Source: Geothrix oryzisoli
GTDB lineage: Bacteria; Acidobacteriota; Holophagae; Holophagales; Holophagaceae
Assembly (NCBI RefSeq): GCF_022808865.1
Contig: NZ_JAKZLB010000001.1
Span: forward strand, 682,001-746,000
Length of the DNA stretch: 64,000 nt
Direction of reading: 5' to 3'
Positions 37,916 to 39,050 of the stretch are shown here, in pieces (within the stretch, counting starts at the first letter, position 1; the number at the start of each line of letters is the position of its first letter). The translations under genes were made by a program, and so were the position numbers. The notes beneath the pieces were generated by a model. That model was given only the letters and a program-made list of their open reading frames with translations. It searched no databases and had not been told where the DNA came from.

Positions 37916-38015
37916 CTCTCCAGCATGGCCGCAGGAGCGGACGGGGCCGCCACCGAAATGGGCATGGACCATCCGTGGCGGAATGGGCGATGATGGGCCA
38001 GGAGCCAATGACCCC

Positions 38016-39050
38016 ATGGCCGTGACCAAGACCCCCCGCAAGAAGCCCATCGCCACCGTCGCTGAGGTGGAGAAACCCGCCGCCAAGACGAAGGCCACCC
38101 CCACGAAGAAGGCGGCCCCCAAGAAGGCCGATGCCCCGGAGCCCAAGGCCAGGAAGACCGCCAAGACCCCTGTGAAGACCAAGGTCCCGGAGGTTGTCGA
38201 GCCCGCCGCCGCGGCCGTGGAACCCGCTGTCCCGGCCCCCCCGGCCCCGAAGCCGGTTGCGAAAAAGGCCACCCCAGCGTCCGCCCTGCCGCCCCTGGTG
38301 GAGGCGGTCCTCGCGGCCATCCGCGACGGCCGCGCCGTGGAATTCATCTTCGCCGACACGGAAGCCAATGCCCCGCGCACCTTCGAGCCCCGGCAGCTCA
38401 CCTTCGACGCCCTCAGCCAGGCGTGGTTCGTCTGGGGCTGGGACCGCCGCTACAACGCCGAGCGCCACCACCGGGTGGATCTGCTGGCCGAAGTGAACGA
38501 CGTGGAAGGCGTGGGCCGCGCGGCCCAGGGTCCCTACACCGAGGGCACGGCCGCCAATCAGATCGGCGGCTGGCTGGGTGGCGAACCCATCGCCGTGAAG
38601 GCCACCCTGCTCAAGCAGTGGGTCTTCGCCGTGAAGCAGGCGCCTCCGGCCTTTCCGCACTTCAAGCTCGAGGAGCAGGGTGATGGCCAGGCGCTCGTGA
38701 CCTTCACCGCCACGGACCTTCGCGCCATCGCCCGCTGGGCCATGCAGTTCGGCGATGGCATCCAGGTGCTGGAGCCCGCCCGGCTGGTGGACCGGATCAA
38801 GCAGGTGGGCGCCGTGTGGGCCGGGCGGGACCGCCAGGCCGCCGCTCCCGCCCCCAGGCCCGCACCCCGGCCCGAGCCCAGGCCCGAGCAGGAACCCCGC
38901 CGGCACGAGCCCAGGCATCACGCAGAGGCCAAGCCCGAAGCCCGCCCCGAACCGAAGCCCCACCGCGAGCCCCGTCCCGAACGGGAGCGGGAGGAAGCCC
39001 CCAAGGGCAAGCCGGGCAAAGTCGAGGTCATCCACTTCGACCGGCTCTAA
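38016..39050 (+). CDS. WYL/WCX-domain protein with histone-like N-terminal tail and charged C-terminal tail
   Basis: This is a 344-residue protein. Residues 1-92 are a low-complexity Lys/Ala/Pro tail (repeats of KKAAPKK and KTPVKTK type) like bacterial histone H1-like tails. Residues ~95-160 match a WYL domain (AIRDGRAVEFIF, FEPRQLTF, AWFVWGWDRR, HRVDLLAEV). Residues ~190-262 match the WCX extension (VFAVKQAPPAFPHFKL, FTATDLRAIARWAMQFGDGIQVLEPARLVDRI). Residues 270-335 are a Pro/Arg/Glu-rich charged tail. Usual WYL regulators begin with a helix-turn-helix, which is missing here. The basic tail may bind DNA or RNA non-specifically, with the WYL core sensing a nucleic-acid ligand. No operon partner is evident. 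Confidence 0.75.
   Translation: MAVTKTPRKKPIATVAEVEKPAAKTKATPTKKAAPKKADAPEPKARKTAKTPVKTKVPEVVEPAAAAVEPAVPAPPAPKPVAKKATPASALPPLVEAVLAAIRDGRAVEFIFADTEANAPRTFEPRQLTFDALSQAWFVWGWDRRYNAERHHRVDLLAEVNDVEGVGRAAQGPYTEGTAANQIGGWLGGEPIAVKATLLKQWVFAVKQAPPAFPHFKLEEQGDGQALVTFTATDLRAIARWAMQFGDGIQVLEPARLVDRIKQVGAVWAGRDRQAAAPAPRPAPRPEPRPEQEPRRHEPRHHAEAKPEARPEPKPHREPRPEREREEAPKGKPGKVEVIHFDRL

Follow-up and report, generated by a model that had tools for sequence, protein, structure and literature searches.

A WYL-WCX protein with a disordered basic tail in place of a helix-turn-helix, conserved within the Holophagaceae

According to one survey, the classes covering more than 90% of WYL sequences carry a helix-turn-helix (HTH) before the WYL domain (PMC6789036), which raises the question of what a WYL protein does when a lysine-rich, disordered tail stands in that place. 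Such a protein is encoded in the stretch of DNA analysed here, 64,000 nucleotides from Geothrix oryzisoli (the window). ORF calling and translation gave a frame of 344 aa at 38016-39050 on the plus strand, with an AGGAG ending 11 bases before the ATG start. The reading that we tentatively favor, with a probability of roughly two in five, is that this protein binds single strands, tethered by its basic tail, and recruits a partner via its C-terminal tip, with no operator-reading head. The features used in the argument are as follows.

38016-39050, plus strand: whole gene, an HTH-less WYL-WCX protein of 344 aa (ORF, translation, orthologues; dN/dS below 1 in every segment)
37966-37995, plus strand: upstream block GGACC-N18-GATGATG, which may be the gene's own promoter (seen in the window and in 36 of 56 loci)
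38016-38279, plus strand: N-terminal Lys/Ala/Pro tail, residues 1-88, starting MAVTKTPRKKP (composition, low pLDDT, dN/dS)
38295-38492, plus strand: WYL domain, residues 94-159, an Sm-like barrel (Pfam PF13280, AlphaFold2, fold matches to DriD, PafBC, BrxR and CapW)
38505-38585, plus strand: linker between WYL and WCX, residues 164-190, strongly conserved (invariant at 13 of its 27 positions across 56 sequences)
38586-38834, plus strand: WCX domain, about residues 191-273 by the model (Pfam PF25583, AlphaFold2)
38829-39005, plus strand: C-terminal Arg/Pro/Glu/His polyampholyte tail, residues 272-330 (composition, dN/dS 0.11-0.12)
39006-39047, plus strand: conserved C-terminal peptide, residues 331-344, ending KVEVIHFDRL (conservation; dN/dS 0-0.04)

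The sequence-only reading had proposed a WYL plus WCX core, and both Pfam profiles scored above their curated cut-offs: WYL (PF13280) at residues 94-159 with 28.7 bits (cut-off 21.8; E 1.3e-6) and WCX (PF25583) at residues 217-263 with 44.3 bits (cut-off 23.9; E 2.3e-11). Both domains were also listed in all 56 sequences of our family alignment (profile search, E ≤ 0.1), which comprises the window protein and 55 of 57 loci; L097, whose N-end is open, and L083, whose tails are the same as those of L082, were left out (L097 also from the composition counts), and the start of L059 was corrected by hand. An HTH was found in 0 of the 56 sequences, and none of the five families listed at E ≤ 0.1 is an HTH family, in a scan where the called start of about six rows may lie too far downstream, which could conceal N-terminal sequence. 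The AlphaFold2 model, a single chain built from the 56-sequence alignment, has a helix at 93-104, five strands at 108-162 and mixed helix and strand at 192-273, with low confidence before about residue 89, in the linker (164-190) and after about 273; its overall confidence is modest (mean pLDDT 65.4, pTM 0.36). It contains neither an HTH nor a three-helix bundle, and residues 1-89 are without structure. The proposed replacement of the HTH by a disordered tail is thus borne out by profile and model alike, as are the two disordered charged arms, which are low-confidence in the model and conserved in composition. Neither a failed WYL/WCX profile search nor homologues with an HTH, the results named beforehand as contrary to that reading, was obtained.

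Structural comparison points to the origin of the core. Chains of DriD and PafBC fill the best 15 Foldseek rows (E 1.2e-10 to 1.2e-7), CapW, BrxR and the CRISPR-related protein 6oaw come next, and the best sequence match among solved structures was PafC (E 9.5e-5). In VIA-align, the match to DriD extends over 160 residues with Z 12.0 and an rmsd of 9.3 A, and that to BrxR over 74 residues with Z 11.6 and 2.3 A, which indicates that the WYL barrel fits well and that the relative placement of WYL and WCX differs or is poorly predicted. We infer that the WYL-WCX core is of DriD/PafBC-like stock. Of the three other WYL loci in the genome, one encodes an HTH_11 protein, one a Helicase_C_3 protein and the third a WYL-WCX paralogue whose N-terminal part is long.

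The residues lining the putative groove are largely retained. In the alignment to PafC, R150-H-H-R153 stands at R-L-F-R; R150 occurs in 56 of 56 sequences and R153 in 49, with Cys (4), Gly (1), Asn (1) or Leu (1) in the remaining seven; where the PafC motif has Phe, all 56 have His. W137 and a Tyr or Phe at 138 are likewise found in all 56, the WYL triplet reading W-[YF]-[VAIT]. PafB is reported to need both groove arginines and the Tyr of the WYL triplet to bind ssDNA, and in PafC ssDNA binding is reported to stay near wild type when the same arginine pair is mutated (PMC11804915). The conserved residues would favor a retained single-strand groove, although the seven sequences without R153 and the PafC mutant result weaken this support.

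Such a groove might also serve RNA. The protein could then act more like RspWYL1 or Hfq than like a sensor of DNA damage, as an RNA binder with an Sm fold and basic tails. This would be consistent with the reported preference of RspWYL1 for ssRNA over ssDNA and dsDNA (PMC6547453) and with the many Hfq and Sm chains matched by the barrel in VIA-align (Z 8.0-9.2 over 61-75 residues). However, two designed small barrels outscore Hfq (Z 9.5 and 9.6), values of Z near 8 are common, and the Hfq profile PF17209 matched neither the window protein at E ≤ 10 nor the 56 sequences at E ≤ 0.1. The distribution of Hfq itself is suggestive, as Hfq scoring at least 76 bits was found in 0 of 40 Holophagaceae genomes versus 14 of 16 genomes of two other families of the same class, but this difference is that of one lineage, and 39 of the 40 Holophagaceae genomes retain a divergent, longer Hfq-like protein (at most 30.9 bits, above the Pfam cut-off in 4). 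Furthermore, one Holophagaceae genome (G204) has neither the WYL-WCX protein nor the Hfq-like protein, and two other-family genomes (G031, G035) lack a strong Hfq, yet are without the WYL-WCX protein. In the window's own genome, the divergent Hfq-like domain lies inside a longer protein (C1:459859-460023, minus strand; L150:1076-1711, minus strand). We consider a role on the RNA side improbable. A bolder version, in which a family-specific Sm-fold single-strand sensor or chaperone on the chromosome or RNA, its DNA-reading head replaced by histone-like and polyampholyte arms, took over part of the role of canonical Hfq and recruits an effector via its tip, appears a long shot; Hfq replacement is a thin lead rather than evidence.

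The distribution of the protein is narrow in the collections searched. The sequence-only reading had suggested looking across Acidobacteriota for homologues with the same tails, and such a family was found, only in the Holophagaceae, whose members inhabit soil and sediment: in a draw of 297 genomes, matches at E 1e-12 or better occurred in 26 of 27 Holophagaceae genomes and in 0 of 270 other Acidobacteriota, the sole Holophagaceae genome without a match being one of 1.2 Mb. Within the genus Geothrix, 24 of 25 genomes have the protein, with a core 85-100% identical to that of the window; the genome without it has a completeness of 80%. A two-peptide-pattern scan of 84,980 species genomes, in which E-values are relative to the candidates only, returned 57 loci plus three weak matches in Treponema. 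By title, 44 of the 57 belong to Geothrix or Holophagaceae, nine to 'Acidobacteria bacterium', and one each to Holophaga, Holophagales, Bacillota and Deltaproteobacteria. The Bacillota- and Deltaproteobacteria-titled loci (L099, L103) are 72% identical copies in metagenome bins; these titles are probably wrong, since L099 has the match coordinates of a Holophagaceae genome (G307). The three Treponema loci (17-25% identity) and a same-class locus (L030, 23% identity) have an N-terminus that looks HTH-like by eye, and were read as ordinary WYL regulators outside the family. A scan of viral contigs yielded 0 relatives from eight pattern matches. The tailed, HTH-less WYL-WCX protein is a conserved family limited to the Holophagaceae within the collections searched, and its distribution and neighbors suggest vertical inheritance.

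Conservation along the protein is uneven. The core across the family is 60-97% identical to that of the window. In the 56-sequence alignment, mean identity to the window is highest in the linker (164-190; 86%) and WCX (85%), followed by the helix with WYL (76%), residues 1-11 and the last 14 residues (73% each), the C-tail (51%) and residues 12-88 (37%). Starts were chosen by script, and the GTG-start rows (L088, L090, L093, L095, L102 and L106) are probably too short, which lowers the N-tail identities, the 5% minimum included. Across three hand-picked sets of close relatives, comprising 13 pairs that share sequences and are not independent, dN/dS was highest in residues 12-88 (0.30-0.55), lower in WYL (0.02-0.13), the linker (0.05-0.16), WCX (0.04-0.13) and the C-tail (0.11-0.12), and 0-0.04 at either end, both in residues 1-11, where computable, and in the last 14 residues. 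This pattern implies that the C-tail and tip are constrained about as strongly as the core, and that the N-tail is retained mainly as composition. The strongly conserved linker and the conserved C-terminal peptide are features beyond those of the sequence-only reading. The domain content, the lack of any HTH found, the conservation of linker, tails and tip, the selection acting on them and the lineage restriction within the collections searched are what the data show directly.

These values bear on the possibility of a degenerate regulator, an HTH-WYL-WCX protein that lost its head and, in a GC-rich genome, grew neutral low-complexity tails. An N-tail dN/dS reaching 0.55 and a tail length that varies among homologues would be consistent with such decay. 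However, a core at least 60% identical throughout the family and kept in 26 of its 27 genomes, a C-tail dN/dS of 0.11-0.12 with both ends near 0, and a tail composition that is rare in the sampled genome all argue against it, and we regard degeneration as very improbable.

To judge the composition of the tails, genes were called crudely in 400 kb (about 12%) of the same genome, which gave 275 of 120 aa or longer. Residues 2-86 are 65% K+A+P and 21% K, against N-terminal maxima of 36% and 13% among these calls; R/P/E/H/K/D make up 81% of residues 271-332, where the highest value among the calls is 63%. When any 60-residue stretch was considered, one of 302 calls exceeded the K/A/P stretch of the window protein (a protein with the fold of indole-3-glycerol-phosphate synthase, IGPS; 0.98 versus 0.70) and none reached its R/P/E stretch (0.83 versus a maximum of 0.65). 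Within this 12% sample, such rarity suggests that the tails are more than chance or general genome composition. Over the 56 loci the N-tail averages 18% Lys and has almost no aromatic or Cys residues. The C-tails of five proteins (L074, L075, L078, L079 and L082) contain tandem REARPERE-type repeats of variable copy number. Pfam matches of the C-tail to Trypan_PARP (22.4 bits, cut-off 100) and SrfA (6.8 bits, cut-off 150) were rejected as composition matches.

The earlier description of the N-tail as 'histone H1-like' holds as a statement of composition, and no further. The IGPS-fold protein (PF00218, residues 10-239; own genome contig C2, L121:9242-10696, minus strand) carries a long histone-H1-like AAPKKAAAKK tail of its own. 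A search of 11 Holophagaceae genomes from four genera found it in every one, at 70-96% identity and at full or nearly full length; nine of the 11 have an additional 22-27% match elsewhere, perhaps the ordinary enzyme. A strong K/A/P tail on such a protein indicates that these tails need not mark regulators. In composition, the N-tail also resembles the KPAA tail of AlgP, so that, as with AlgP and PhaF, a Lys/Ala/Pro tail could link a granule or condensate to the nucleoid, with the WYL-WCX core as adaptor. This polyphosphate or granule tether is improbable in our judgment: the core has an Sm-like fold and not the helical N-domain of AlgP, and the tail is at the opposite end of the protein and lacks a long run of KPAA repeats.

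The C-terminal tip is highly conserved. Glu337 and Leu344, as well as Asp or Glu at 342 and Arg or Lys at 343, are present in 56 of 56 sequences; apart from single exceptions, the Geothrix form is [KR]-[VIL]-E-[VI]-x-[RH]-[FIVY]-[DE]-[RK]-L. One residue is missing from 18 of the 56 rows. A loose version of the pattern matched all 56 loci with a complete frame, and the tip was found in 0 of 302 gene calls elsewhere in the 400 kb sample (about 12% of the genome). The tip looks like a docking peptide, which would be consistent with a co-regulator that joins another transcription factor or RNA polymerase, for instance as a WCX heterodimer with its own WYL-WCX paralogue, the tails serving as spacers. 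WCX is reported to take part in PafBC heterodimer formation (PMC11804915), and each of the 25 genomes of the genus has a second match (30-34% identity, partial in one), with WYL-WCX content seen in the own genome's copy only. This copy (L002:1156-2454, minus strand, contig C3; 31% identity to the core) lies beside a response-regulator-like ORF. Its N-terminal part looks HTH-like by eye, but Pfam finds no HTH and the PDB match spans WYL-WCX only, and no HTH is therefore claimed for it. The gene and its paralogue are on different contigs (C1 and C3), however, and a co-regulator leaves the Lys-rich tail unexplained; we consider this explanation unlikely, while granting it appreciable weight.

In the window, the genes on both sides of the WYL-WCX gene run in the opposite direction and encode an EamA-type transporter and a peptide-binding protein; similar neighbors recur in part of the loci (names from reading of the translations). 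Most loci that extend far enough have genes resembling fabF and xerC upstream, including six loci of 69-81% core identity (L087, L088, L091, L098, L102 and L106). A same-strand xerC gene lies upstream in 44 of the 57 loci, some loci of the 57 being too short to show one, and in 15 of these 44 it is within 250 bases of the WYL-WCX gene. No conserved operon partner was found, the directly adjacent xerC being confined to the same 15 of 44 loci, and the setting looks housekeeping-like. Two more distant loci (L087 and L091) have a short ORF, ArgR-like by eye, between xerC and the WYL-WCX gene; in L091 this interval also overlaps with a longer frame that runs the other way. Two CRISPR-labelled PADLOC WYL profiles matched the protein (E 7.3e-21 and 8.4e-7) and were taken, by inference, as general WYL models; with fabF- and xerC-like genes as the recurrent neighbors, a link to defence or CRISPR was judged unlikely.

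Just 5' of the gene, the pattern GGAC[CG]-N-GAT[CG]ATG recurs in the 36 of 56 loci and the window listed above, and it has a single match in the 64 kb window. From sequence alone, the block at 37966-37995 suggests that the gene may have a promoter of its own; a scan for the sigma-70 consensus found none. The GGACC-N18-GATGATG block is also present where another gene separates xerC and the WYL-WCX gene, as in the window.

The favored reading, a tethered single-strand binder that recruits a partner, may be outlined as follows. By analogy with DriD and PafBC, the WCX domains would pair, and the protein is probably dimeric. The conserved residues suggest that the arginine groove of the Sm-like WYL barrel could bind short ssDNA or RNA, and the Lys/Ala/Pro tail, to judge from its composition and from CarD and AlgP, may tether it to DNA or RNA irrespective of sequence. 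The Arg/Glu/Pro tail could act as a flexible arm presenting the fixed C-terminal peptide (KVEVIRFDRL in Geothrix) to a partner protein, as its conservation suggests. The output would be a partner recruited to exposed single-stranded nucleic acid, and not the binding of one operator. This scheme is supported by the retention of the tip in 56 of 56 complete-frame loci while the N-tail averages 37% identity, and is opposed by the N-tail being the fastest-evolving segment, with a dN/dS of up to 0.55.

Among the open-licence papers listed by our searches, none, judged by title and the start of its abstract, describes a tailed, HTH-less WYL-WCX family, and the layout looks undescribed. For the N-tail, the closest functional precedents may be CarD and AlgP. 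CarD of Myxococcus xanthus, like the window protein, joins a folded regulatory module to a disordered basic tail; its basic domain is reported to be replaceable by others, histone H1 included, and CarD without its tail to retain some function (PMC8156234). However, DNA binding is known for the tail of CarD, which has RGRP AT-hooks, whereas the RGRP core, the mark of HMGA-like and other AT-hook proteins, is absent from the window protein, and the folded module of CarD is a Tudor-like domain that binds RNA polymerase. AlgP and PhaF of Pseudomonas share the disordered Lys/Ala/Pro tail but differ in their core, in bearing the tail at the other end and in their long KPAA repeats; AlgP is reported to be associated with polyP granules, whose spacing depends on its tail (PMC9239181).

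For the core, the nearest systems are DriD and PafBC, ssDNA-sensing activators that it matches in both cases. DriD, a WYL transcription activator of Caulobacter crescentus, has the same WYL-WCX fold and order, but its residues 1-133 are described as an N-terminal wHTH, a linker and a three-helix bundle (PMC12340889) where the window protein has a disordered tail, and the C-terminal tail and tip of the latter are extra. Actinobacterial PafBC has an R-x-x-R in the WYL groove, to which R150 and R153 of the window protein align; it is a heterodimer with an HTH in both subunits that works with RNA polymerase, whereas no HTH is found in the window protein by profile. RspWYL1, the Cas13d accessory protein, likewise stands outside the wHTH scheme, but has ribbon-helix-helix motifs and its own C-terminal domain. 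The neighbors seen around the WYL-WCX gene look housekeeping-like. Finally, the class A HTH-WYL-WCX regulators (PMC6789036) share the WCX after WYL and differ in their N-terminal HTH. Set beside them, a conserved HTH-less family implies that evolution separates the sensing module from the DNA-reading head, and cautions against naming such genes transcription factors from a WYL match alone. It would also provide a clean system for studying the WYL-WCX core by itself, the addition of a histone-like tail, and the partner that reads the tip.
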